NCBI RefSeq assembly: GCF_900142845.1
Contig: NZ_FSRU01000002.1
Span: forward strand, 3,224,001 to 3,288,000
DNA: 64,000 nucleotides
Reading direction: 5' to 3'
Source: Paraburkholderia phenazinium
GTDB taxonomy: Bacteria > Pseudomonadota > Gammaproteobacteria > Burkholderiales > Burkholderiaceae
Position 1 is the stretch's first letter; every line of letters begins with the position of its first letter. Positions 45,886-60,928 of this stretch are shown here, piece by piece. A model generated the notes under the pieces. The model searched no databases. It saw only the letters and a program-made list of their open reading frames with translations, and was not told the DNA's origin. Both the position numbers and the translations under genes were made by a program.

Positions 45886-48800
45886 ATGGGCCAATCGGGG
45901 CAACAAATCTCCCTGCGTCTGGGGCAACGGGACGCAGCACGTGAGGCGGCGCGCTTTGCAGTTAGCGTGTTGAGCGTTGATGCACGCCGGCCGTGGTGGA
46001 TGCGTGCGACCGCGTCGGTCATGGCGGTCGTGATGTATCTGAGTCCGCTTCTGGTCCTGTTCGACGAGATCGCGCAGGCTGCGCCGATTGTGGACCCCCG
46101 TGCACCGATTCAGTTCCAGCCGACGATTACCCAGACGAGCACGGGCGTACCCGCCGTCAATATTGCCGCGCCCAATGCCAATGGCATCAGCATCAATAGC
46201 TATCAGACGTTCGATATCGACGGCACCGGACTGGTTCTGAACAACAGCCTCGTATCGGGCACACCTCTCCTCGGCGGCACACTGGCGCCCAATCCGAACC
46301 TCGCGGGGCGCACGGCGAGCGTGATCGTCAATCAGGTCACTTCCACGGGTCCGGCTTCGACACTGGTCGGGCCACTCGAGGTATTCGGCAGTCCCGCTTC
46401 GATCATTATCAGTAATCCGAATGGAATTTCAGTAAATGGACTTTCACTGACCAACTCTTCGAGCTTGGTGCTGACCACCGGGACTCCGCAGTTTCTCACG
46501 GCCGTAGGCGGTACCTCGACGAGTTTCACGAACGCCGGCGCACTTGCGTATAACGTTACGTCGGGAAACATCACGATCAACGGACCCGCAGGCACAAACG
46601 GCCCGGGTTCGGGGATCGAGGGCACGGTCGGCAATATCGATGTGATTGCGCAGACGATCAACCTTAACGCGCCGCTACTCGCGAGCCAGCGCATCAATCT
46701 GATTGCCGGCAACCAACTGGTGACGCCTGCCACCACCGACTCGTCGGGGACGAATTACGGCACCACAGCGAACGGTGTCACGAACACGGCGGCGTCGATC
46801 GGCAACAACGCGGTGGCGATCGATGCGAATCAGTACGGATCCGTCACAAGCGGGCAGATCTATATCGTGTCGACGGCCGCCGGCATGGGCGTGAACACCT
46901 CAGGCGCACTCTCTGCGACCGCGGGCAATCTCACGGTGACATCCAATGGCGACATTGCCGTCGCCTCGACCTACGCGCAGCAGAGCGCGACGCTCTCGGG
47001 CGCAGGCACGATAAGCATGGCTGGCGGGAGCCTGGCGAATCAGTACACCGTCAACGCGGCAGGCGACATCGCGGCTGCCACTGCGTCCGTACAGTCAGTG
47101 CAGGACCTGAACATGACGGCGGGCGGCAGTTTCAGCCTCGGCGCGGCGCAGTCCAACGGCAGCGTCAATCTGAAGTCTGGCGGCGATATGTCCGTGGGTT
47201 CGGTGGCGACCGGCAATAACCTGTCGTTGATCACCAGCGGCACCACCGGCAACGGCGACCTCACTGTGGGCGGCGCAGCTGCCGCACCGGGGACGATCAC
47301 GATTACCTCCGCCCGCGACGCGACGGTGAATGGGTCGGTGACCGGTGGCAGCACAGTGCAGCTTGTAGCGCAGCGTAGCGCAACCGTGAACGGACGGGTC
47401 GCGGCGACCGGCGATCTTTCGCTGGTCGGACAGACGGGCAACGTGACCACGACCGGAGGGGTAGAGGCGAGCGGCAATCTGAACGCGAACGCCGGACAGA
47501 CGATGACGCTTGGCGGCAACGTCAGCGCGACCGGTAACACGCTGTTGAATGCAGGTGCCGATCTGAACGTAGCGGGCGACGTGACGGGTAACGGCACGGG
47601 CGTGCTGAGCGCAGGGGGCAATCTCACCGCGAGCGGCACGGCAAGTTTCGGTCAGGACACCACGCTCAGCGCAGGGCAGAGCGTGAGCTTGCCCGGTGCC
47701 GTCAAGACGGGCGGTAACCTGGCGGTGACCGCAGGTACCAGCCTGACGGTCGGCTCCGCGAGCGCTGCGGGCAACGCGACGCTCACCGCGACGGCCGGTG
47801 CGGCCACGGTGAATGGCGCTCTCGCCAGCGGTGGCAATACGACGCTCACGGCCGGCACCGATGTGATCGTTTCAGGCACGCTTGCCGGGAACGGGACTGG
47901 CACGCTAAGCGCGGGGCGCAATCTGTCGGGTGGCGGTTCGGCACAGTTCGGATCCGATGCGACGCTGACGGCCGGGCAAAGTATCAACCTGTCCGGCTCA
48001 TTGCAAACGGGCGGCAATCTCAATGCCACGGCCGGCACGAGCCTCGCAGTCGGTGCCGCAACTTCGGTGGGCAACGCAACGCTCAAGGCCAACGGCGGTG
48101 ACGCAACGATCAACGGTGCGGTGCTGAGCGGTGGCACCCTATCGGGCCTGGCCACGGGCAACCTGACCGTGACGGGGAGCGTGACCAGCCTGGGCGCGAC
48201 GACACTGACGGCGCAGACGGGGAACCTGCTGGCCCAGGGCGGGCTGAATTCAACCGGTGACGCGACCCTGTCAGCCGGGCAGACACTCGCGGTCACAGGC
48301 GCGACCCAGGTGGGCGGCGACGCGACGCTAACGGGTACCAACATCACGACCGGCGGCACCACGACGGTCTCGGGCAACCTCACTGCGAGCGCCCAGAACA
48401 GCGTCGATCTGTCCGCCGGTCAATTGAACGTCGTCGGCAATGCCACCGTGTCCGGCGCGAATGTGACGACTGGCGGCGCACTGATCGGCGGCAACCTGAC
48501 GGCGACTGCATCGAACAAGGCAACGACGGCGGGCAGCCAGACCCTGGTGCAGGGTTCGGCGACGATCTCGGGGCAGAACGCCGTCACGAACACGGGCAAC
48601 GTGCTGGCGGGGGGCGCGCTATCGGTCACCGGCGCGAATGTCACGAACGGTACGAACGCGAGCCTGATCTCAACCGCCGCGACCACCGTCAACGCGACGA
48701 ACCTGAGCAACCAGGGGTCGATTGCCGGTCTGACGACGGGCGTCAGCGCCACCGGCTCGCTCACGAACAACAACGGCGCCATCATCGGCACCAACCTGCT

Positions 48801-51800
48801 GAACATCACGACGGGTAATCTGGCAGGCAATCAGAACGGCATCCTGTTCGCGGGCAACACGAGCTCGACGACACCCGGTGCGCCGGGCAACGCGACCGTG
48901 ACGGTGATGGGCGGTAACGGCACGTTCAACAACACTGGTGGCCAGATACTTGCCCAGAACAATCTGACCTTGAATCTGCAGAACCAGGTATTCGATCCGT
49001 CGGCTGCAGCCAGCGGCACGCTCAACCTCGGCAACGTGCTGACGATCAATACGCTGCAACTGAACAATGCCGGTACGTGGGCGATGCCCGGCAATAGCGT
49101 GGCGATCAACGCGACGCAAGGCATCAGCAACAGCGGAACGATCAGCAAGGCCGGCGACATCACATTGTCGACAAACGGCACGCTGAACAATAGCGGCACG
49201 ATCTCGGCGGGCAGCGACGTCAATCTCTCCGGTACGGTTGTCAACGAAGCGGGCGGGACGATTCACGCGAACGAGGACGTGAATCTGACCGGTGTCACGA
49301 CCAACGCCGGCACGATCGCCGCGGTACGGGACGTCAATCTGAACGGGAGCAGCTTCGACAATAGTGGCGCGACGACAAAGGCCGGGCGGGACCTGAACGC
49401 GAATCTCTCAGGAAACCTGACCAATGTGGGCGGCATGATCTCCGCACAGAACAACATCACGATCAATGCCGCGAACGTGGATAACAGCCGGGCCGGTGCG
49501 AATGCCACGACGACCACGGTTACGACGACCACGGTCAACGCCGCCGGTCTTGGCGCAGCACTGTTGTCCTCACCGATAGGATCGCTGACTCTGAGCGATC
49601 CCATCACGACGCCCGATGGAACGACGACTGACTATACCGCGACCATTACGGGTCGGGTAGGCGATCTGCAGCCATCGACCGCGACGACTTCGACCGCGCC
49701 CGATCTGGGCGGCGGTACGTTCAATGGCATCGCGCTTCCGACGGTTGACCAGACAACTACGACCACACAACCATCGGGCGTGGGCGGCGTAATCGCCGCG
49801 GGACAGAATCTGTCGATCACCACGGGTGCCCTCAACAACCATGGGAGCACGATCTCGGCGGGCAACAACGTGTCGTTGACCGTCTCATCGCTCGACAATG
49901 GGGGCGATACCGGCGTCACCACAATTAGCGACAGCATCGACGCGGCCTCGTATGCGAGCTTCCTCACCCAGCTGAAGGCCGCCTATGGGGCGGGCTCACT
50001 GGTCGCGATGCCGGGACTGACCGATGCCGGACTTAACAACCCGGGCGGCAACCCGGTGAGCGTCTCGGCCAACATCATCACGAGTACCGCTCCACCCGCC
50101 GCGCAGATCTCCACATTGACGACCTATACCAGCGAAAGCGCGGGGCAGATCGTCGCGGGCAACAACCTGTCGTTGACCGGTACCGGTGGGAGCCTGACGA
50201 ACGCTGGCAATCTGTACGCCGGGCAGGACCTCGTCATCACAGCAAACAGCTTTACGAATCAGGGCTATCACGCTTCCAGCCTGACCTCGAGCACCGGTTG
50301 TGTCGCAGGCGTCGCGGCAGTGGATTGCGGTTACTTCGGGACGACGCTGGGGTCTGCCAACGAGATGGTGATGTACGAGCGCCCGGGGCAGAATTTTACC
50401 GACGCATTGACCAACGCTGCGGCCGCACAGGAGCTTCTGCACTTTTACGCGATCTTTGGGCCCAACAACGATTCAGCCAGCATCTACGGCGACCAGACCA
50501 GTACCCAGACTTACAGCTACACGCAGACCAGCAACACGGTATTCGCAGGGCGCGATCTGATCATCGCTGCACCGACCGTCACCAACGTCGATGGCAATCT
50601 GACCGCTGGGCGCGACGTGGTGATCGGCGGAGCCGGGACGACCCGCAACAATACGGATCCGGACAATCCGCAGACGAACCTCACGCAAGCTTCAAACGTC
50701 ACGAACACATCGGGCAACATCCAGGCGGGCCGCAACCTTGCGATCAGCACGGCAGCGCTGACCAACAGCCTGTCAGCCCCGGTTCAGATCTACCAGAACT
50801 ACGGCACAACGGCCATGTATGGCTGTAGCGGTGCCTCGTACCACTATTGCGATGCCTTCGTCGATCAGCAGTCGGGCAATGCGTCGACGATTTCGGCGAA
50901 CCAGAACGTCGCGATCACTGCCGGTACCGTGGTCAATACCGGCAGTCTGATCACCGCCGGAACCCAGGTGACGATCGCGGCTACGTCAACGGTGACCAAT
51001 CAGAACCAGACGCTGAATGCGTACTGGCATGACGCTTTCTATGGCGGCGTGATCGGCGGTTCGGTGCCGCCGGACAATTTTGGCTGTGGGACCTCGTCCA
51101 ATTGCGCGACGCTATTCGGCAGCGCGTACAACACGAGCGACGGAGTCCAGCCACCCACGCCGTACAGGAGCCTGCCTGGGACGATTCAGGCGCCGTCGCT
51201 GGCCGTGACCGCCGGCGGACAGGTGCAGAACTCCGGCAACGTCATGGGCCAGCAGGTTTCGGTCACCGGCGCCTCGATCGTCAACGGTCTGACGTCGCCG
51301 GGCACTTATACGCCGCAGTCAACGGGCTCGCAGCAGGTGATCTCGCTCGGGCCGGTCGGTACACCGGTCGTGGTGGCGAATGCCGTGAATCAGGCTGGTC
51401 TCATCGGGCAGGTCAGCGGTGGTCTGTCGGGCGCCTCGGGTATCGCGGGGGGCATCACAGTAGCGGCGAGCGGTTCGCTTGCCGCGGCAGGGAGTACGTC
51501 GGCAGGCCAGAGCCCGACATCGCTGAGCGTGCCGGCCATCACGGTCGCATCGATTTCCGTGCCCGCTTCGCCGGGTGTCGCGGTGTCGTCCAGCACGACG
51601 GCGCAGGCTGGAGCGAATGTCACTTACCTGATCAACAACCCGGCCTCCGCGGTGATAGGTGGCGTCGGGCCGGCCCAGTTGCTGGACAATTTGCCGGCGA
51701 ACCTGCAACCGGCTACCACGCAGTTCTACTACGACCCGTTCACCGAGAACCAGTTGCTGCAGCAGGCGGCCCTGACGCAGACCGGCCAGGCGAGCTTTAT

Positions 51801-54063
51801 TAGCGGCCTCAGCTACGACAGCAAGACGCAGGCCTCTGTGACGGATCAGGAGAAAGAGGATCTGTATGGCAATGCGATCCAGTATGCGAAGACGAATGGA
51901 ATTGCGTTGGGGACGGCGCTCAGCCAGTCGCAGATCGCTTCGCTGGACGCGCCGATGTTGTGGTACGTCGAAGAGACGGTGCCTGAGCCAGGTTGCACGG
52001 CAACGGGTAACGCAACCTGCCCGACGGTGACGGCGCTGATGCCGCAGGTTTATCTGCCGCAGAACTACGCGGCGGTTCAGTACGACGGGACGATCAGCGG
52101 TCAGAACGTGACGCTGACCGCGTCGAACGGCGGCACGATCACGAACACGGGTTCGATCAGTGCGACCGGTACGTTGACGGTCAATGCGGGGACGCTGACG
52201 AACGAGCAGCGTTCGACCGACATCGGTACGCAGTACACGTATCTGCCCGATATCTACGGGTTGCTGACCACGACCGGGACGGTGGTGCAGGACGGCGGAT
52301 TCATGTCGGCGGGCAACTACCAGATGAACGTCGACGCTGTGAACCAGATCGGTGGGGCGCTGCAGAAGCTCAACGCCGACGGGACTGTCGATACCACGGG
52401 AACCGAACAGCAGCTGGCTGCGCTCAAGGCGCAACTGGGTGACAGTTTTACCCAGAGCACGGTTCAGAATAATCTGCAGACGACGTTCAAATCGACGGCC
52501 GATAGCGAGGGGCTGTTCCAGGAAATCGGGATGCTGGCCGTCATGGTCGTCGCATCGGTCATGACGGCGGGCGCGGCATCTGCCGTGATCGGCGCCGCCG
52601 CACCCGCAGGCAGTACGTTTGCAGCCGCTACGGCGAGCACGACCGTCGGCGGTGTCGTAGTGCCGGGCGTTGCGGCCGGGTTGGGGAATATCGCGTTGTC
52701 AGCCGGTATTGCGGCAATGGCCAGCAGTGCGCTCGGTCAGGCGGCGGGCAACGGTCCGTTCAGCGTTGGTTCGATGTTCGAATCCGGCGGCGTCGCGATG
52801 CTGACCGCGGGACTGACCAACGGCATCACGTACAACAGCAACACCGGAGCACTGGGCTTCAGTCTGGGTGGCGCCAGTTCGCTGCCGGGCGGGGTGAGCA
52901 CGCTGGGGCAACTGGCGGGTGTCACGCCGGGGCTGGGGACGGGGATTCCGCAGTCGACTGCAACGCTGGCGGGAAATGTGGCCGAGCAGGGCGTGGCGAT
53001 TGCGGGTGAAGCGACCCTTCAGGCGGGTGTGCAGAGCGCGCTGGAGGGCGGGAGTTTCCTGAACAACCTGAAAAACGCTGCGGTCTCGGATGTGGCGGCG
53101 GCTGGGGCGTTCGATATCGGTAGCAGTACCGATCCGTTGACGTTTGAAAATGTAGCTGAGCACGCCATTCTCGGGTGTGCGGCGAGCGCGGCGGAAGGGA
53201 GTGGATGCGCCGGAGGTGCCATTGGCGGAGCCGTGTCGGCGGGATTGAACCCGATCATCAACAGCAGCGGTAACCTCTCGCCTGCTGCCTTGGCTGCGGT
53301 CGAAACGCTCGTCAGTGGCAGTGTCGCGGGCGCGCTTGGGCTCAATGTTCAGGGGGCGGTGACGGCGGCGCAGAACGAGACGCTGAACAATTTCTGCGAG
53401 CACAACTCCTGCGGGAAGTGGCTTACGGCGGTTGCGAACAACGTCAGCAATGCACTCAATGCAGGAGCCGACGTTCCGGCGATGGAGTCGGCGGCAGGTA
53501 CCGACGTGCTCGCGGGTATCGGGAATACGGCGCTGAACGCGGCGACCTTCTCGCTGCCGGGGATGCCGGATTACGTGCCATATTTCCAATACAGCAATCC
53601 GGCGCTTGGTGCGCTGGGTGAGCTTTACGGCACGTTCGGGCTTGGCACTCTTGCTTCTTCGGCGTTCGCCGAATCAGTTGCCACAGACACCGCGGTGTCG
53701 GGCACAAGAGGCTTGGGGCAATATGGTGGGATTTTTTCTTCTTCGACGAACGCCGCAGGCGGGCAGGTATGGACGTCTGTTGGCGACATTTCGCAGAATG
53801 ATTTTGCTAGTCTCGTAAATAGTGGCCTGTACACTGGAGAAGTCAATATTATTACTGGTGTTCATGGAATGGCGGATGGGACTACGATCGTTGATTCAAG
53901 TTTGTATCAGGCTGACATGAACGCATTTGGTCATATGTCGGGGGTCAACGTTTATAATTTCCCAGATTTGACCCCGGCGCAAATCAACTCCATTCTTAAT
54001 AGCCGGGGGACGACAATTGGTGGATTCTGTAATAGTGGAGCATGCTTGGCTCCCTATAAGTGA
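45886..54063 (+). CDS. CdiA/BcpA-type contact-dependent inhibition exoprotein (TpsA family)
   Basis: A 2725-residue filamentous haemagglutinin-like protein. An extended signal region (about residues 35-66, ending EIAQA) precedes the TPS secretion domain with NPNGIS near residue 180. Residues 330-1400 are beta-helix repeats rich in Gly/Asn/Thr, including a 100-residue repeat with exact 300-bp period at 47521-48120. A region YYDPFTENQLLQQ (about 1948) matches the mid-protein of CdiA proteins; a hydrophobic DUF637-like pretoxin domain covers about 2205-2400; Cys-bearing NFCEHNSCGKW lies near 2507. The tip after the ATDTA motif (residue 2599 on) is the variable toxin. Exported by TpsB, stuck on the cell surface and delivered to neighbours. 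Confidence 0.93.
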   Translation: MGQSGQQISLRLGQRDAAREAARFAVSVLSVDARRPWWMRATASVMAVVMYLSPLLVLFDEIAQAAPIVDPRAPIQFQPTITQTSTGVPAVNIAAPNANGISINSYQTFDIDGTGLVLNNSLVSGTPLLGGTLAPNPNLAGRTASVIVNQVTSTGPASTLVGPLEVFGSPASIIISNPNGISVNGLSLTNSSSLVLTTGTPQFLTAVGGTSTSFTNAGALAYNVTSGNITINGPAGTNGPGSGIEGTVGNIDVIAQTINLNAPLLASQRINLIAGNQLVTPATTDSSGTNYGTTANGVTNTAASIGNNAVAIDANQYGSVTSGQIYIVSTAAGMGVNTSGALSATAGNLTVTSNGDIAVASTYAQQSATLSGAGTISMAGGSLANQYTVNAAGDIAAATASVQSVQDLNMTAGGSFSLGAAQSNGSVNLKSGGDMSVGSVATGNNLSLITSGTTGNGDLTVGGAAAAPGTITITSARDATVNGSVTGGSTVQLVAQRSATVNGRVAATGDLSLVGQTGNVTTTGGVEASGNLNANAGQTMTLGGNVSATGNTLLNAGADLNVAGDVTGNGTGVLSAGGNLTASGTASFGQDTTLSAGQSVSLPGAVKTGGNLAVTAGTSLTVGSASAAGNATLTATAGAATVNGALASGGNTTLTAGTDVIVSGTLAGNGTGTLSAGRNLSGGGSAQFGSDATLTAGQSINLSGSLQTGGNLNATAGTSLAVGAATSVGNATLKANGGDATINGAVLSGGTLSGLATGNLTVTGSVTSLGATTLTAQTGNLLAQGGLNSTGDATLSAGQTLAVTGATQVGGDATLTGTNITTGGTTTVSGNLTASAQNSVDLSAGQLNVVGNATVSGANVTTGGALIGGNLTATASNKATTAGSQTLVQGSATISGQNAVTNTGNVLAGGALSVTGANVTNGTNASLISTAATTVNATNLSNQGSIAGLTTGVSATGSLTNNNGAIIGTNLLNITTGNLAGNQNGILFAGNTSSTTPGAPGNATVTVMGGNGTFNNTGGQILAQNNLTLNLQNQVFDPSAAASGTLNLGNVLTINTLQLNNAGTWAMPGNSVAINATQGISNSGTISKAGDITLSTNGTLNNSGTISAGSDVNLSGTVVNEAGGTIHANEDVNLTGVTTNAGTIAAVRDVNLNGSSFDNSGATTKAGRDLNANLSGNLTNVGGMISAQNNITINAANVDNSRAGANATTTTVTTTTVNAAGLGAALLSSPIGSLTLSDPITTPDGTTTDYTATITGRVGDLQPSTATTSTAPDLGGGTFNGIALPTVDQTTTTTQPSGVGGVIAAGQNLSITTGALNNHGSTISAGNNVSLTVSSLDNGGDTGVTTISDSIDAASYASFLTQLKAAYGAGSLVAMPGLTDAGLNNPGGNPVSVSANIITSTAPPAAQISTLTTYTSESAGQIVAGNNLSLTGTGGSLTNAGNLYAGQDLVITANSFTNQGYHASSLTSSTGCVAGVAAVDCGYFGTTLGSANEMVMYERPGQNFTDALTNAAAAQELLHFYAIFGPNNDSASIYGDQTSTQTYSYTQTSNTVFAGRDLIIAAPTVTNVDGNLTAGRDVVIGGAGTTRNNTDPDNPQTNLTQASNVTNTSGNIQAGRNLAISTAALTNSLSAPVQIYQNYGTTAMYGCSGASYHYCDAFVDQQSGNASTISANQNVAITAGTVVNTGSLITAGTQVTIAATSTVTNQNQTLNAYWHDAFYGGVIGGSVPPDNFGCGTSSNCATLFGSAYNTSDGVQPPTPYRSLPGTIQAPSLAVTAGGQVQNSGNVMGQQVSVTGASIVNGLTSPGTYTPQSTGSQQVISLGPVGTPVVVANAVNQAGLIGQVSGGLSGASGIAGGITVAASGSLAAAGSTSAGQSPTSLSVPAITVASISVPASPGVAVSSSTTAQAGANVTYLINNPASAVIGGVGPAQLLDNLPANLQPATTQFYYDPFTENQLLQQAALTQTGQASFISGLSYDSKTQASVTDQEKEDLYGNAIQYAKTNGIALGTALSQSQIASLDAPMLWYVEETVPEPGCTATGNATCPTVTALMPQVYLPQNYAAVQYDGTISGQNVTLTASNGGTITNTGSISATGTLTVNAGTLTNEQRSTDIGTQYTYLPDIYGLLTTTGTVVQDGGFMSAGNYQMNVDAVNQIGGALQKLNADGTVDTTGTEQQLAALKAQLGDSFTQSTVQNNLQTTFKSTADSEGLFQEIGMLAVMVVASVMTAGAASAVIGAAAPAGSTFAAATASTTVGGVVVPGVAAGLGNIALSAGIAAMASSALGQAAGNGPFSVGSMFESGGVAMLTAGLTNGITYNSNTGALGFSLGGASSLPGGVSTLGQLAGVTPGLGTGIPQSTATLAGNVAEQGVAIAGEATLQAGVQSALEGGSFLNNLKNAAVSDVAAAGAFDIGSSTDPLTFENVAEHAILGCAASAAEGSGCAGGAIGGAVSAGLNPIINSSGNLSPAALAAVETLVSGSVAGALGLNVQGAVTAAQNETLNNFCEHNSCGKWLTAVANNVSNALNAGADVPAMESAAGTDVLAGIGNTALNAATFSLPGMPDYVPYFQYSNPALGALGELYGTFGLGTLASSAFAESVATDTAVSGTRGLGQYGGIFSSSTNAAGGQVWTSVGDISQNDFASLVNSGLYTGEVNIITGVHGMADGTTIVDSSLYQADMNAFGHMSGVNVYNFPDLTPAQINSILNSRGTTIGGFCNSGACLAPYK
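47521..48120 (+). repeat. Two 300-bp tandem coding repeats in the exoprotein
   Basis: Blocks 47521-47820 and 47821-48120 encode matching 100-residue units: NGTGVLSAGGNLT / NGTGTLSAGRNLS and AGQSVSLPGAVKTGGNL / AGQSINLSGSLQTGGNL occur exactly 300 bases apart. A degraded third unit follows. They add turns to the beta-helix and are a likely site of length variation. Confidence 0.8.
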
Positions 54064-54086
54064 GATGCTGATACTGAGTGTGAATT

Positions 54087-54263
54087 ATGAAAACCTACCA
54101 TGCAATAGTTTGGGTTGATGGTCCGGAGCAGCCCGGTAAGCGCGTCGTTTTGATTGCGGAAAACTTGGATGAGGCAAGAGAGAAGTTGGAGGCTGAATAT
54201 GGAAAGAATTGCGAATACACGCTGAAAAACGAGGAGGATGCAGCAAAGCGGCGGTTATTTTAG
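54087..54263 (+). CDS. Candidate immunity protein of the CdiA tip (58 residues)
   Basis: A frame of 58 codons starting 24 bases after the exoprotein stop. It reads MKTYHAIVWVDGPEQPG, then VVLIAENLDEAREKLEAEYG and a charged tail ending KRRLF. The layout is strand, strand, amphipathic helix, with many acidic residues. In Burkholderia-type CDI loci the gene directly after the exoprotein encodes the immunity protein that binds the toxin tip. Position and size are the evidence; I do not recognise the family. The ribosome binding site is weak (GAGTGTGAATT). GC is lower than in the exoprotein body, as for imported toxin/immunity cassettes. Confidence 0.6.
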   Translation: MKTYHAIVWVDGPEQPGKRVVLIAENLDEAREKLEAEYGKNCEYTLKNEEDAAKRRLF

Positions 54264-54295
54264 GTGACACAATTCGAGCAATTTTAAGATGACGT

Positions 54296-54820
54296 GCCAC
54301 AGATAGCGCTGCAACGCTCCGTGTCTCCAATGGTGTGACGCTTAATCCTGCATTGCCTACCCCACTGGCAGGTCTGGATTATGAGCCGACAATTTTGAAT
54401 TCGACCAATCCCAATATTGCTAACTCTCAGCTCAACGGATACGTTGCAGAACTGAACTTGGCTAATCAGGTCGCAGAGCTGCCTGGGCAGACTGTAGTGG
54501 CATACGGTGACGCGGTGGGTACGCACGGTGCCGACGTGGTGTCGGTCGACGCGAGTGGTAATGTTACGCTTTGGGATAGCAAGTTCCGCAGCAGCAGTCA
54601 GTCGATACAGTCGTCCCCAACGTTTACACCGGGCTCGGATGCGGTGAATAATGCTGTTAATCAGGCGGTAAGCGCAATAGAAAATTCGAATTTGCCGCAG
54701 TCGACTATTAATAACGCACTTCAGAATTTGCAGGATGGGAACTTTACTGCCAATACGGTCGGATCAGGCAGTGTAAAAAATTCGGTTCAGGTGAAATTCT
54801 GTGGCGGAAAGCCGTGCTGA
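54296..54820 (+). pseudogene. Orphan CdiA toxin tip 1, possible PD-(D/E)XK nuclease fold
   Basis: A displaced toxin tip without secretion domain. The frame opens after a stop at 54290-54292 with RATDSAATLRVSNG, the same junction as in the main exoprotein, and runs to 54820. The core GADVVSVDASGNVTLWDSKF has the Asp...(Asp/Glu)-x-Lys spacing of PD-(D/E)XK nucleases, found in several CDI toxins. The C-terminus has two cysteines (KFCGGKPC). There is no good start codon at its head (GTG at 54335 is possible), so it is probably silent until recombined onto the exoprotein. The sequence itself is undamaged. Confidence 0.65.
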
Positions 54821-54827
54821 GGAAGAG

Positions 54828-55613
54828 ATGAGATTTGATCCGGAAAAAACGAGAGAGGCTAAGCTGCGTCGGGATGGTGCGTTACTCCAGTTTTTATTGG
54901 ATACCAAGTATGATCCGAATCGACCCATGGGGAACGTGGCTCAAAGCCAAATAGGAGACGTCATCAGCGCTTGGTTGGTCGGCCTTCATAAGGAAGTTTC
55001 GCTTGTGATTCATAGGTCAAATGAGTGGCTGGATCGGGCTATTGAGGAAGATGAGGGGTTTGGTGTTGATAAAAATCTTCATCGTAGAACTTTGCATTGG
55101 GCTAGGGCTATTGGTGAATGGCTTGAGACGGGGTGGAACGCGGAAGGCTGTTGGGACAATGCTCGTGTATTTGAAGAGGCGGCTTGGCGCTATGAAAAAC
55201 GCCCTTGGTCAGCAAACGAAATCGTTAAGTCAGGCTTGGGCGATTACATGGCGTTTGCTTATCTCGGTGGAGAGCATAACGGTGGCTTCGATGCGGGAAT
55301 TGACACATACGAACGCTGGGTCGGTGAGACAAAACCGTCGCTAAGAAAAACTCTGACGCCATATGAGTATGGTTACCTACTTTGCTTGCACCGAGAACGC
55401 CAACAGTTCGACGCAGCTGAGTTGTTTACTGCGGGACGAAGAATGCTACAGGCCAACCTAGAAGAAACGTGGTTGGGAGGGGGGCAGTACATAAGAGCGG
55501 CCACTTGGTTGAAGATTGTGTACTGTGATCATGACCCAAGTTTGACGCCGCTGCAGGTAGTACTCAGTGCCTATGACAATATGCCCAAGGTGGCTCGCCC
55601 CGAATTTTTGTGA
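54828..55613 (+). CDS. Orphan immunity protein 1
   Basis: A 261-residue, mainly helical protein encoded 7 bases after orphan tip 1. ATG at 54828 has GAGGAAG just upstream; a GTG at 54801 would overlap the toxin. Conserved-looking blocks include HWARAIGEWLETG, CWDNARVFEEAAWRYE, DYMAFAYLGGEHNGG and ANLEETWLGGGQYIRAATWLK. I believe similar proteins sit behind polymorphic toxins, but I cannot give the family name. Proposed to neutralise the nuclease-like tip before it, protecting against siblings that still deliver it. Confidence 0.65.
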   Translation: MRFDPEKTREAKLRRDGALLQFLLDTKYDPNRPMGNVAQSQIGDVISAWLVGLHKEVSLVIHRSNEWLDRAIEEDEGFGVDKNLHRRTLHWARAIGEWLETGWNAEGCWDNARVFEEAAWRYEKRPWSANEIVKSGLGDYMAFAYLGGEHNGGFDAGIDTYERWVGETKPSLRKTLTPYEYGYLLCLHRERQQFDAAELFTAGRRMLQANLEETWLGGGQYIRAATWLKIVYCDHDPSLTPLQVVLSAYDNMPKVARPEFL

Positions 55614-55624
55614 ATGGATAACAA

Positions 55625-56039
55625 GCCACAGACAGCGCAGGCGCGTTTGCTGCGGATGCGGGAAGTGTCAAGAATGTTAACCCCACGGGGTCGTTGCAGA
55701 ACTGTACGAACTGCGTAGCGGTTGTCGACAACTTACTTACTACCGGGAATCCAGCTAGTGCATTGCCCAGAGCAACGCCCGTGCCCTTTAGTCAACTCGG
55801 TCAGATGTATGGGACTACATTTAGTGGCTGGACGACGCAAGAGAATATCGAGTCCGCGCTGCTCGCTGGTGGAAATGGTCACACGAGCTGTTGTGTACGG
55901 AACGGACGGGGTTACTGGGCACGTATGGAATGCTGTCGTGCAAAATGGCAGTGTGAACTACATCGATGGTCAAATTGGCGGTAGTGGCGCTGCTAACTTC
56001 CAGAACTTCTCGCACTTTCAATTTGGGATACTGCCATGA
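55625..56039 (+). pseudogene. Orphan CdiA toxin tip 2, papain-like, with a frameshift
   Basis: Begins right after a stop (TAA 55619-55621) with QATDSAGAFAADAG, the junction motif again. The first frame holds LQNCTNCVAVVDNLLTTG, the second RAVVYGTDGVTGHVWNAV and NYIDGQIGG. Cys, His (GHVWN) and Asp (DGQ) in this order match papain-fold polymorphic toxins (Tox-PL type). The two frames join near 55880; removing one C from GGTCACACG restores GNGTRAVVYG, so a 1-bp insertion has broken it. No start codon at the head. Confidence 0.75.
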
Positions 56040-56302
56040 CGCTGGATCTTGTCACTGCAAAGAGGATGGCGCTTGAGTATCTCGCGGAACAACAGACCAA
56101 ACCTGGAGGAGTGCCCTATTCCATTGTTGATTCTCGAATCGTGGAAGATGACGAGGGATGGTACTTCCCTTACCAGTCGGTTGAGTTCTTGACGACCGGA
56201 GATATGAACGCTTCTCTCGTGGGAAACTGGCCGATATTTGTTCGTCGAGACGGTCTCCATGTTGGCCCGTGCCGACCTGAAAAATGGCTGCGTCGCAATT
56301 GA
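56036..56302 (+). CDS. Orphan immunity protein 2 (Imm35/YrhB-like)
   Basis: An 88-residue protein whose ATG overlaps the stop of orphan tip 2 (ATGA). The pattern GWYFPYQSVEFLTTGD, then LVGNWPIFVRRDGLHV and a final RPEKWL is that of YrhB/Imm35 domain immunity proteins as I know them. The frame is intact although the toxin before it is broken, as expected if immunity is still useful or is lost later. Confidence 0.75.
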   Translation: MTLDLVTAKRMALEYLAEQQTKPGGVPYSIVDSRIVEDDEGWYFPYQSVEFLTTGDMNASLVGNWPIFVRRDGLHVGPCRPEKWLRRN

Positions 56303-56862: not shown

Positions 56863-57029
56863 TGGCTTTGGGGCTGTACGAAATTCACGTACATGATGCC
56901 GGAGCAGCTGGATAACGAGGAGTGTCGAATGAAGAGCCGCTAGATCGAATTCGCTGCTCAGCGTAAGGGAAGTACAACCAATTGTTATTCGGCATCAAGA
57001 ACCACAAGAAACAAGAATCGGGGAAGCAT

Positions 57030-59108
57030 TTGAACACCACAAAACAAGCGACGATGCGCCTGCCGCATACGTCCCGCGCCATACTGTCTGTCGCCGTTCA
57101 CGCATCGTTCGCACTCTCGGGCGCCCACGTCCTGGCCGCGGGCATTGTTCCTGACGGCGGCACGGCGACAGGCGTCAGCGCATCGTCGTCCGGCCGCCAG
57201 ACGGTGACCCTCGCGCCCACGGTCGGCGGCGTCTCGAACAACACGTACTCCTCGTTCAACGTGACTTCGGCGGGCGCCGACCTGAACAACGTCGGCGTGA
57301 ACGCACGCACCATCGTCAACCAGGTGACGAGCACCAATCCATCGCTGATCCAGGGGCCGATCAACGTCCTCGGTCCGCGCGCGAACGTGATCCTTGCCGA
57401 CCCGAACGGCGTCACAATTGATGGTGGCAGCTTCTTCAACACCGGACACGTCGTCGTATCGACCGGCCAGGTAAGCTTCCAGGATTCGACGCAGGGAACC
57501 AGCGTAACGCAACGCAACGTTGTGCTAACGACCAACGGTGGAGCCATCACGATTGGCCCAGGCGGTCTCTCCGGAACCCTCGTCAACCTCGACCTGATCG
57601 CGAAGCAGCTCTCGGTGAACGGGCCGGTCACAAACAGCTTCACCAGTTCGGTTGGCGGCGTGCGTGCCATTGTGGGCGATAGTACGGACACCTACGACAC
57701 AAGCTACTCCCCCGGTGACAATAGTCACGACTGGCTCGTCAGTTCCACCTCTCCCGGTGCGACCAGTTCGGCGCTGGCGGTGGACATCACGGCACTCGGC
57801 GGCATAACCGGCGGGCGGGTGCAACTGGTGATCACGGACAAGGGCGCGGGGGTTCGCAATCTCGGCGCGATTTACGCCAGCGCGGGCGATGTGGTGGTCT
57901 CGACCCAGGGCGACATCAGTGTGGCCGATGGCTCGATCAAGGCCGAGAACGATATCCAGATCACGACGCCTGGGGCATTCTCGATGCAAGGCTCGCAGGT
58001 ATCCGCCACCCACAGCGTCACGGTCAATGCAAACGGCATCAGCCTGAGCGACGATGCGACCGGGCCGTCGATCCTGAGCGCGCTGACCGGTGCCGTCAGC
58101 CTGACCAGCACCGGCGATATTTCCAGCACAGGCAGCCTGATTCAGGCCGGTGCAATTGCGGCCAACGGGACGGCAAGCGGCGGTGACGTGACGCTGAGCG
58201 CGAGCGGCAGCATTACGAACCGCTCGACCGCCGCGAACCTTGGCATCATCTTCTCGGCTAATGGAGTGGCGTCATTGACGGCCAAGGGCGATATCACCAA
58301 CGATAACGCGCGGATCCTGTCGAACGGCAACACGAGCCTCACTGCTCAGGGTGACGTGTTCAACGTGATCGACCACACCAGCGGTATCGACGGCGGCCAG
58401 CCCGTTGCCTACTCGGACAAGGGTGGCAGCTTCCTGTTTTTCACGCACAGCACGAACGGTTTCTACGTGGACTATGGGACCGTCGCTCAACCGGACCAGC
58501 TCGCCTACATCGCATCGACGGGCGGTTCGGTGACTATCGCCAGCCGCAACTTCACCAACTCCGGCGGCATCATCCAGTCGAACGACGGCAACGTCTCGAT
58601 TACCGCGCAACAGGCATTCACCAACGAGGCAGTCTTCGCGGGTCAGGCGAGTTATTCGCAGGGTTGCTGGATTTTCTGTCATGCGAGCGCATCGAGTACG
58701 GTGATGCCGTACGGCGGCACGATCCAGTCCGGCAAGGACATCACCATCACGGCGGGGACGAGCGCCAGCAATATCGGCGGCAATGTCTTTGCCGCTGGCG
58801 ATCTCAAAGTCTCGGCGCCGACGAGCTACGCAGAAGGTGTCACCGGATATTCGGCGATCAACCAGGAGCGTGGGTTCAAGGCATTCTTCGGCAGCACATG
58901 GGCGCAGATCATTGCCACGGACGTCGGCGGCGGCTTCACGGCCGATGGTTCGGTGACACTGGTGGGGCAGGCGTTCATCGATGGCGGCTACATCACCGGA
59001 GCGACGGGTGTTTCGGCAACGAATGGGATCACGACGCTTCGCGCCCCCACCACCACGCCGGTGCAGATTGGCCAGCATCTGGGCCTGACGACCTGGTGGT
59101 GGCGCTGA
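57030..59108 (+). CDS. Second, short TpsA exoprotein (692 residues)
   Basis: A secreted protein with a normal signal peptide (RAILSVAVHASFALSGAHVLAAG) followed by a TPS domain: TIVNQVTSTNPSLIQGPINVLGPRANVILADPNGVTIDGGSFFNT is the family core. The rest is beta-helix repeats with no toxin tip or DUF637 region; it ends in LGLTTWWWR. TTG at 57030 is preferred, since GGGGAAG lies seven bases before it; ATG at 57054 is the alternative. Its stop overlaps the tpsB start (TGATG), so the two are translationally coupled. Role might be adhesin, or a decayed second CdiA. Confidence 0.85.
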   Translation: MNTTKQATMRLPHTSRAILSVAVHASFALSGAHVLAAGIVPDGGTATGVSASSSGRQTVTLAPTVGGVSNNTYSSFNVTSAGADLNNVGVNARTIVNQVTSTNPSLIQGPINVLGPRANVILADPNGVTIDGGSFFNTGHVVVSTGQVSFQDSTQGTSVTQRNVVLTTNGGAITIGPGGLSGTLVNLDLIAKQLSVNGPVTNSFTSSVGGVRAIVGDSTDTYDTSYSPGDNSHDWLVSSTSPGATSSALAVDITALGGITGGRVQLVITDKGAGVRNLGAIYASAGDVVVSTQGDISVADGSIKAENDIQITTPGAFSMQGSQVSATHSVTVNANGISLSDDATGPSILSALTGAVSLTSTGDISSTGSLIQAGAIAANGTASGGDVTLSASGSITNRSTAANLGIIFSANGVASLTAKGDITNDNARILSNGNTSLTAQGDVFNVIDHTSGIDGGQPVAYSDKGGSFLFFTHSTNGFYVDYGTVAQPDQLAYIASTGGSVTIASRNFTNSGGIIQSNDGNVSITAQQAFTNEAVFAGQASYSQGCWIFCHASASSTVMPYGGTIQSGKDITITAGTSASNIGGNVFAAGDLKVSAPTSYAEGVTGYSAINQERGFKAFFGSTWAQIIATDVGGGFTADGSVTLVGQAFIDGGYITGATGVSATNGITTLRAPTTTPVQIGQHLGLTTWWWR

Positions 59109-60928
59109 TGCGGGACGCTGTGAAAGTGACGCGTGCAAAACGCGCTGCCCTGTTGCGTGCTGTCGCGATCGGTTGCATGCAGGGTATGACAGTTCACGCC
59201 CAGACGCCGCCCGGCGCTCCGCCCCCACCACCCTCGCCACCGCCCGTGCGTCCGATCCAGGACCCCGCGCAACTGATCATCGATCAGCAGCGCGCGCAGG
59301 CCACACAGCGTCAGCTTGCGCAGCCACCGGCATCGATATCGTTGCCGGCAGCGGCGCCGCAGACGTCGCTCGACATTCCGCCAGACACGCCGGTCGACCA
59401 GATTGTCGAAGCGGGGCCGACTTTTCCGGTCAGTCGAATCGACGTGGAAGGCAACACCGTGCTGCCGCAAAAACGCATTGACGCGATCATCGCGCCGTTC
59501 GTCGGTCACGCGCTCGGCTCGCATCGCCTCAATGTGCTGCTTAAAAGGCTGACCGACGCGTTTGTGAAGTCGGGCTACATCACGACACGCGCTTTTCTGG
59601 GCCCGCAGAATCTCGAATCGGGCACCCTGAAGATCCGGGTACAGGTTGGCCGCATTGCGGGCTACACGCTTAATGGCAAGCCGCTTGGCCCGCGTTTGAA
59701 GACGAATGAAAAGTCGGCAGGCGGCGGGCTCTTCACAGACGCGGGTTCGGAATGGGCGTTTCCCGCCGCGCCTGGCGACGTGCTGAATATTGCGGATATC
59801 GATCAGGGGGTATCCCAGATCAACCGTCTGCGACGTAACCAGGCGGAAATCCAGATTCTTCCGGGCCAGAGTCCGGGTGACTCGATTGTTGCGATCAACA
59901 ACCGGCCGGGTGACCGCCTGTATTACACGTTTGGCGTCGACAATTACGGCAGTGAATCGACCGGCCTCACGCGGTATCGCGCGGGCGTCGAAGCCGATAA
60001 CCTCATCGGCCTGCAGGAATCCGTCAACCTGAATTTCGTCGACAGTGCGGACAGCAATGCGTTCGTCGGCTCTTTCGCCATACCGTACGGTCGCCATACG
60101 TTCAGCTATACGCTCTCGGAGTCGGACTACCAGCAGGTGATCGGCACCTCGGCGCTCGAGTATGGCAATACGCTCAGCCACATTCTGGGCTGGAACTATG
60201 CACTGGACCGTACCCAGGCGGGAACGGCCGGTCTTGACGCGACGTTGTCGTGGCGCCGGACTGATCGCGAGGTGAACGATATCGATCTTGACCCGCAACA
60301 TATCGCGGTGTTGCGATTTGGCGGCAACTGGCTGCGCAAGTTCGTGCTGAACGACGCGCCGGGCAACATCACGCTCGATGCGGGTCTGTCCGAGGGGCTT
60401 CCGTGGCTGGAGGCAGACCACGACGCGCATGGCATCGACCGTACCGATGCGCACAGCCAGTTCACCAAGCTCGATGCGACCGCCACCTTCACCGTGCCGC
60501 TGCCGAAACTGGGGCCGGTTTCGTCGGCTTACCGCGGCGCGCTTGGCGGTCAATACGTGAACGTCGCACTGTACGGCTCCGAGCAGCTCTATCTTGGTGG
60601 CATGGACACGATACGCGGCTTCCGGTCCGGTGAAATCGCGGGAGACCGCGGCTTCTATTCGCGCAACGAGATCGCCTGGGTGAACATGCCGGCCTGGCAC
60701 GACGGCAGACTCGAGCCGTATGTATTCCTCGACGCAGGCAAGGCGAGCCTGATTGCTGTGCCCGGTTTTCCGACGCTGGCTGCAACCGGTGCCGGTCTGC
60801 GGGCGCAGTGGCAGTGGCGCCAGCAGATGCTCTCGGGCGAACTGACCGTCGGTCGTGCACTGGCCCAACCGGCGAGCCTCGGACCGAAGACGACGCTGGT
60901 ACTTGCAACATTCAACTGGAACTTTTAG
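59108..60928 (+). CDS. Two-partner secretion transporter TpsB (FhaC/ShlB/CdiB type)
   Basis: A 606-residue outer-membrane Omp85-superfamily protein. Signal peptide to about residue 31 (MTVHA), a Pro-rich linker (33-48), two POTRA-like domains (starting FPVSRIDVEGNTVLPQKRIDAI and VGRIAGYTLNGK) and a C-terminal 16-strand barrel ending in ATFNWNF with terminal Phe. The lid-loop motif is IRGF in GGMDTIRGFRSGEIAGD, equal to the family's VRGY. It recognises the TPS domain of its partner in the periplasm. The only TpsB in the locus, so it may serve both exoproteins. Confidence 0.93.
   Translation: MRDAVKVTRAKRAALLRAVAIGCMQGMTVHAQTPPGAPPPPPSPPPVRPIQDPAQLIIDQQRAQATQRQLAQPPASISLPAAAPQTSLDIPPDTPVDQIVEAGPTFPVSRIDVEGNTVLPQKRIDAIIAPFVGHALGSHRLNVLLKRLTDAFVKSGYITTRAFLGPQNLESGTLKIRVQVGRIAGYTLNGKPLGPRLKTNEKSAGGGLFTDAGSEWAFPAAPGDVLNIADIDQGVSQINRLRRNQAEIQILPGQSPGDSIVAINNRPGDRLYYTFGVDNYGSESTGLTRYRAGVEADNLIGLQESVNLNFVDSADSNAFVGSFAIPYGRHTFSYTLSESDYQQVIGTSALEYGNTLSHILGWNYALDRTQAGTAGLDATLSWRRTDREVNDIDLDPQHIAVLRFGGNWLRKFVLNDAPGNITLDAGLSEGLPWLEADHDAHGIDRTDAHSQFTKLDATATFTVPLPKLGPVSSAYRGALGGQYVNVALYGSEQLYLGGMDTIRGFRSGEIAGDRGFYSRNEIAWVNMPAWHDGRLEPYVFLDAGKASLIAVPGFPTLAATGAGLRAQWQWRQQMLSGELTVGRALAQPASLGPKTTLVLATFNWNF

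Follow-up and report, generated by a model that had tools for sequence, protein, structure and literature searches.

A CdiA-like protein of Paraburkholderia phenazinium with a marginally scoring Tox-HDC tip and a conserved downstream partner gene, a candidate immunity gene

We analyzed a window of 64,000 nucleotides from Paraburkholderia phenazinium (contig NZ_FSRU01000002.1, positions 3,224,001 to 3,288,000), which encodes a large CdiA-like protein. The last 119 residues of this protein, referred to as the tip, form a separate domain that is, judged by its sequence, a Tox-HDC domain (PF15656), with a marginal profile score. A gene of 58 codons begins 23 bases past the stop codon of the CdiA-like gene, and homologues of this small gene lie directly behind most of the related tips that could be inspected. 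This is probably a contact-dependent growth inhibition (CDI) locus with a Tox-HDC tip and a 58-residue cognate immunity protein, representing a bacterium-directed branch of the family that uses CdiA or Rhs proteins as carriers. While the Tox-HDC toxin class itself is already known, the conserved downstream partner and the CdiA-type carrier set this case apart from its published description. Positions are those of the window and are collected in Table 1.

The CdiA-like carrier and its Tox-HDC tip

A first-pass annotation of this DNA had described the large CdiA frame and named several residues of its tip. The open reading frame (ORF; 45886-54063) and all of these residues are indeed present, and the protein carries a two-partner secretion (TPS) domain. 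With regard to CDI membership, this TpsA protein is accompanied by a nearby CdiB-like transporter, with a second TPS protein in between, and its C-terminus is variable past a junction of the VENN or NxxLYN type. In the excerpts of PMC3415462, NxxLYN is the motif that divides core and tip in Burkholderia-type systems. Here, it takes the form NETLNN (residue 2497, nt 53374), in which N replaces the Y, and the variable C-terminal region probably begins at this position. In a comparison with the relative P0001, the region before the tip is unlike, but the tip is 80% identical. The alignment is nearly continuous from RGLGQYGG onward, which places the start of the homologous tip at residue 2607 (nt 53704). 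This second boundary had been taken as the CdiA junction by the first-pass annotation. Since the NxxLYN-like NETLNN stands earlier, it more likely marks where an entry domain gives way to the toxin domain. The GC content of tip and small gene is 0.469 and 0.475, respectively, compared with 0.636 for the protein core, and the corresponding values for third codon positions (GC3) are 0.45, 0.54 and 0.78. The lower GC content of tip and small gene noted in the first pass is thereby borne out, and a separate origin is probable.

The tip had previously been matched to no named toxin class, a view that did not hold, since Tox-HDC was named in 2012. The PF15656 profile scored 21.6 bits for the C-terminal piece of 124 residues and 21.8 bits for the 119-residue tip, at a curated cut-off of 21. 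Structure prediction of the tip alone, which had been proposed together with the profile search, resulted in a model with a mean predicted local distance difference test score (pLDDT) of 90.3 and a predicted template modeling score (pTM) of 0.85. Fold searches with this model returned no significant neighbour. A protein search with the tip retrieved seven proteins, all of which carry a precomputed PF15656 assignment; one of them is a TPS carrier and six contain RHS repeats. Furthermore, PF15656 was matched at E<=0.1 by all eight members of the tip alignment (A1).

The Tox-HDC family was named and described by Zhang et al. 2012 (PMC3482391), whose authors, in the excerpts of that paper, predict a thiol peptidase or transglutaminase. 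The tip resembles the family as described there in its H, D/N and C, each of which ends one of three consecutive strands in an alpha/beta sandwich, in its C-terminal site in polymorphic toxins and in the occurrence of RHS carriers. All 13 tips contain the H of the [ST]GxH motif, the D/N and the C, and in the predicted model of the window tip the residues H54, N85 and C109 are located at the ends of strands 47-51, 81-85 and 103-106, respectively, or directly behind them. This residue test is stronger support for Tox-HDC than the profile score. It also agrees with the earlier suggestion that clustered His, Asp and Cys indicate an enzyme, because the H and C sit at predicted active-site positions; the tip may thus act as a Cys-dependent enzyme. 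In contrast to the SGxH motif of the family, the window tip has T for S, and its low Pfam score marks it, as far as the sequence goes, as a divergent Tox-HDC branch. The conserved downstream partner gene and the CdiA-type carrier, which belongs to the type V secretion systems (T5SS), also set it apart from Tox-HDC as published: the table entry in the excerpts of PMC3482391 gives the type II secretion system (T2SS), no immunity family, and an occurrence in beta- and gammaproteobacteria and tailed phages. Within the literature searched, the term "Tox-HDC" was met in this paper alone and "PF15656" in none. The tip is also rare, being found in two of 398 genomes of its bacterial family, one of which holds a distant lone Tox-HDC. 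The latter is a protein of 290 residues in another genus (L003, 1000-1869; 36.5 bits), and no small partner gene was found in the stretch examined around it.

Conservation of the small gene behind the tip

By its length, the 58-codon ORF is unremarkable: when the downstream stretch was shuffled base by base 2000 times, 12% of the shuffles contained an ORF of 58 codons or more that began within 60 nt. We take it as a real gene because its place after the tip is conserved in distant bacteria. When the genome collection was scanned for patterns from the tip alignment, an approach that reaches fairly close relatives only, 10 loci were identified. Two of them were dropped from the pair count, L013 with 31% identity and a frame that runs on as an unrelated protein, and L012 with only the N-terminal part of the tip near a contig end. 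This left eight related loci with readable downstream DNA, comprising six complete tips (L004 to L009) and two C-terminal parts (L010 and L011). At six of the eight loci, including five of the six complete tips, the tip is directly followed on the same strand by an intact homologue of the 58-codon gene. In L010, a metagenome-assembled genome (MAG) of an actinomycetote, the small gene survives behind the partial tip as a C-terminal remnant. The search for loci that keep the tip and lack the small frame, which had been proposed as a refuting test, was therefore mostly passed (six intact, one remnant, one absent). For the Agitococcus partner, the database start lies five codons later (P0016). The tip domain is common to TPS and RHS proteins.

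At two of these places, additional features were observed. In Bradyrhizobium sp. STM 3843 (L009, 4314-4889), an overlapping DUF7919 frame follows the tip and may be an alternative partner. The start of L011 and the end of L012 belong to two contigs of one betaproteobacterial MAG. The former carries the C-terminal and the latter the N-terminal part of a tip, and an in-frame stop bounds each of the two parts. A short inverted match is present near the break, and this is perhaps one gene split by an insertion.

Eleven residues are invariant across nine aligned small proteins. A profile search with this family found 349 database proteins at E<=0.01, of which 120 were listed and 31 of those 120 examined. 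Among these 31 relatives, P0040 contains a piece of the tip (MYNGEVNIITDVHG) fused to the partner, and P0011 has two copies of the small protein. Relatives bear the database name "hypothetical protein"; therefore, the gene was not missed in those genomes, contrary to the assumption that routine annotation would overlook it. Two further details of the first-pass annotation had to be adjusted: the small gene exists on the forward strand, but the spacing is 23 rather than 24 bases, and the product is just mildly acidic (12 acidic and 10 basic residues).

The small protein reached no curated family cut-off, and its family is unnamed within the literature and family libraries searched, including Pfam, NCBIfam and PADLOC. 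Its model shows a beta-beta-alpha-beta arrangement at low confidence (pLDDT 69.8), and the top Foldseek match is T7 Gp2 (probability 0.99, 30% identity, E 0.28). T7 Gp2 (PF16857) and DpnD/PcfM (PF14207) are small like the 58-residue protein, and Gp2 also has a similar predicted fold. With 14.7 bits against a cut-off of 27 and 13.5 bits against a cut-off of 25, respectively, the protein falls far short of both families, each of which is matched at E<=1 by six of the nine members of the small-protein alignment (A2; best E 0.002 and 0.015). Unlike T7 Gp2 and DpnD/PcfM, the small gene sits behind a toxin.

Orphan relatives, one of them in an integron-like array

Some relatives of the small gene are orphans. 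One (L026/L027) comes from a different genome of this genus, a second is a divergent form (L037), and a third is located in genome G641 (L015/L028), within an array of repeats of ∼112-150 bases that are mostly 0.5-0.7 kb apart and occur on both sides of the orphan. When one mismatch was allowed, a 20-base piece of this repeat was present in 166 copies on one strand and three on the other. The copies begin ∼1 kb from a gene above the integron integrase cut-off; the listed copies of the 20-base piece end ∼16 kb before the orphan, and the repeats flanking it were seen separately. The repeats start with GCCTAAC, which we take to agree with the integron attC core. Because of the repeat array, the integrase gene and this start, at least one relative of the small gene is probably an integron cassette. 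The segment G641:C1:3179000-3189000 (L028) is the part of the integron-like array that carries the orphan. In L038, a remnant of the partner adjoins one that resembles an RHS repeat (21.3 bits at a cut-off of 22).

Proposed function and alternative explanations

Read as a CDI system, the locus consists of cdiA and cdiI, then fragments of further tips, a second TPS protein and a cdiB-like gene, in this order. The Tox-HDC tip would be exported on CdiA (or Rhs) and released into neighbouring bacteria, where it may act as a cysteine-dependent enzyme of the thiol peptidase, transglutaminase or deamidase type, the chemistry being done by the predicted triad of H54, N85 and C109 on a Rossmann-like sheet. 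The 58-residue product would bind and block the toxin within producer cells and their siblings. Tip and partner may travel together between carriers of the CdiA and Rhs types, and the small gene, left on its own, could be kept as an orphan immunity gene. The family match, the placement of the triad in the model, the conserved gene pair, its two kinds of carrier and the orphans are observations, while toxicity, reaction, bacterial target and neutralisation by binding are inferred from them. The mechanism proposed here resembles by description that of bacterial cysteine protease toxin/immunity pairs (PMC12136450; PDB 9l5u), in which a cysteine protease toxin acts between bacteria and has an immunity protein. 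9l5u is named papain-like, and the tip is Rossmann-like. The predicted active-site H and C and the conserved pair support the core of the first-pass annotation, an enzyme-like toxin tip with a small cognate partner. If true, the conserved partner would split Tox-HDC into bacterium-directed and host-directed branches, and the family would gain its first candidate antidote. The Tox-HDC reaction would then also become testable, as an antidote permits safe expression and trapping of the toxin.

A number of observations weigh against this interpretation. The 124-residue piece exceeds the PF15656 cut-off by 0.6 bits, which is marginal, PF15656 was not called when the whole CdiA protein was scanned with Pfam, and a six-frame search of the P. 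phenazinium genome with PF15656 gave no match. The tips of L004 (13.3 bits), L005 (20.4) and L006 (19.6) stay under the cut-off and that of L009 received no PF15656 score; L007 and L008 reached 23.3 and 25.1 bits. Two of the eight tips are partial (L010 and L011). In Bradyrhizobium (L009), the small gene is absent downstream of the tip, and the genome contains no homologue. At L015, L026 and L037, orphans occur with no tip in the sequence examined around them. Moreover, the pairwise identities of tips and partners are uncorrelated (r = -0.06, 7 pairs, the L011 tip being partial; 2874 of 5040 permutations were as high). This lack of correlated divergence would also suit an ordinary eukaryote-directed Tox-HDC effector whose small neighbour is a chaperone, adaptor or secretion helper of the tip. 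In the excerpts of PMC3482391, Tox-HDC is described as typically without immunity genes and hence probably directed against eukaryotes, and L003, the lone Tox-HDC from this bacterial family (36.5 bits), is without a partner. But the carrier is CdiA-like and is followed by further toxin/immunity pieces, and two unrelated carriers (TPS and RHS) have the small gene in common. We prefer immunity to a chaperone role because orphans occur without a tip, and consider the effector explanation unlikely.

The orphan in the integron-like array and those in two further genomes (L026, L037) could instead point to a general anti-toxin or an accessory of mobile cassettes that adjoins the tip by shared mobility, as could the fact that the 58-residue protein weakly resembles T7 Gp2, DpnD/PcfM and PaaB, which are small and serve various purposes. 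However, the adjacency on the same strand, with 3-27 bases or a stop-start overlap, at six of eight readable loci from two phyla makes this highly improbable. The tip might also be toxic without being peptidase-like, for instance as another enzyme with a phosphatase-like or nucleotide-binding Rossmann fold. The points in favour of such an enzyme are all below significance. CX5R is the loop motif of phosphatases, and its Arg is missing from the tip loop C-N-S-G-A-C-L; we regard this possibility as real, though a minor one. Finally, there is a small chance that the 58-residue protein protects on the target side, like Gp2, by occupying whatever part of the bacterial transcription or other core machinery is modified by the toxin, in which case the tip would be an RNA polymerase-directed enzyme and the antidote would also spread in integron cassettes as cross-protection.

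Genes downstream of the pair

Table 1. Features of the window and related loci with an intact partner gene
Feature	Position	Strand	Evidence or remark
CdiA/BcpA-type TpsA protein, 2725 aa	45886..54063	+	PF05860 TPS domain E 3.5e-33; filamentous haemagglutinin-type repeats
CdiA-CT from NETLNN junction (NxxLYN-like, Burkholderia BcpA)	53374..54063	+	motif position
Tox-HDC toxin domain, 119 aa	53704..54063	+	PF15656 21.8 bits (cut-off 21); model pLDDT 90.3
Predicted catalytic His, H54 of tip (TGVHG motif)	53863..53865	+	invariant in 13/13 tips; just past model strand 47-51
Predicted catalytic D/N, N85 of tip	53956..53958	+	N in 8/13, D in 5/13 tips; end of model strand 81-85
Predicted catalytic Cys, C109 of tip (GGFC motif)	54028..54030	+	invariant in 13/13 tips; after model strand 103-106
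Candidate immunity gene, 58 aa	54087..54263	+	downstream homologues at 6/8 readable related loci, remnant at a seventh; profile relatives
Possible displaced older CdiA-CT fragment, 175-codon open frame	54293..54820	+	overlaps start of 270-aa ORF; proposed from position
270-aa ORF, possible partner of displaced fragment	54801..55613	+	position
Broken papain-fold toxin 1 (Gln_amidase/Tox-PL1) remnant, two frames	55694..56039	+	PF15644
Imm35 immunity protein, intact	56036..56302	+	PF15567 41.2 bits, cut-off 27.5
TpsB/CdiB-like outer-membrane transporter	59057..60928	+	PF03865, PF08479, PF17287 above cut-off (POTRA domains included)
L004, Kiritimatiellae MAG			intact partner, gap 27 bases
L005, Asticcacaulis			intact partner, gap 3 bases
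L006, Agitococcus			intact partner, TGATG stop-start overlap if first ATG is the start
L007, Sphingomonas			intact partner, gap 12 bases
L008, Crenotrichaceae MAG			intact partner, gap 14 bases
L011, betaproteobacterial MAG, partial tip			intact partner, TGATG overlap if first ATG is the start

The pieces of toxin modules and the CdiB-like gene behind the pair fit with new tips displacing old ones. The 175-codon frame gave only Pfam rows below cut-off and no solved relative, and the 270-residue ORF has no NCBIfam, Pfam or PADLOC match; together (54293-55613), they are possibly a second, unnamed toxin/immunity pair. PF15644 matched the following remnant in two frames, with E 1.3e-3 (20.2 bits) and E 1.2e-5 (26.8 bits) at a cut-off of 24.1. 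The Imm35 family, to which the next gene belongs, is reported in the excerpts of PMC3482391 to occur solely with Tox-PL1. A second, shorter TPS-domain protein of 708 residues (56982-59108) is encoded after the tip pieces and ahead of the CdiB-like gene. Compared with the Burkholderia BcpAIOB/cdiAIB loci in the excerpts of PMC3415462, the locus differs in having the pieces of other tips and this second TPS protein between cdiI and the cdiB-like gene, and agrees in the order A-I-...-B, in NETLNN being near to NxxLYN and in the combination of a polymorphic tip with a small partner.

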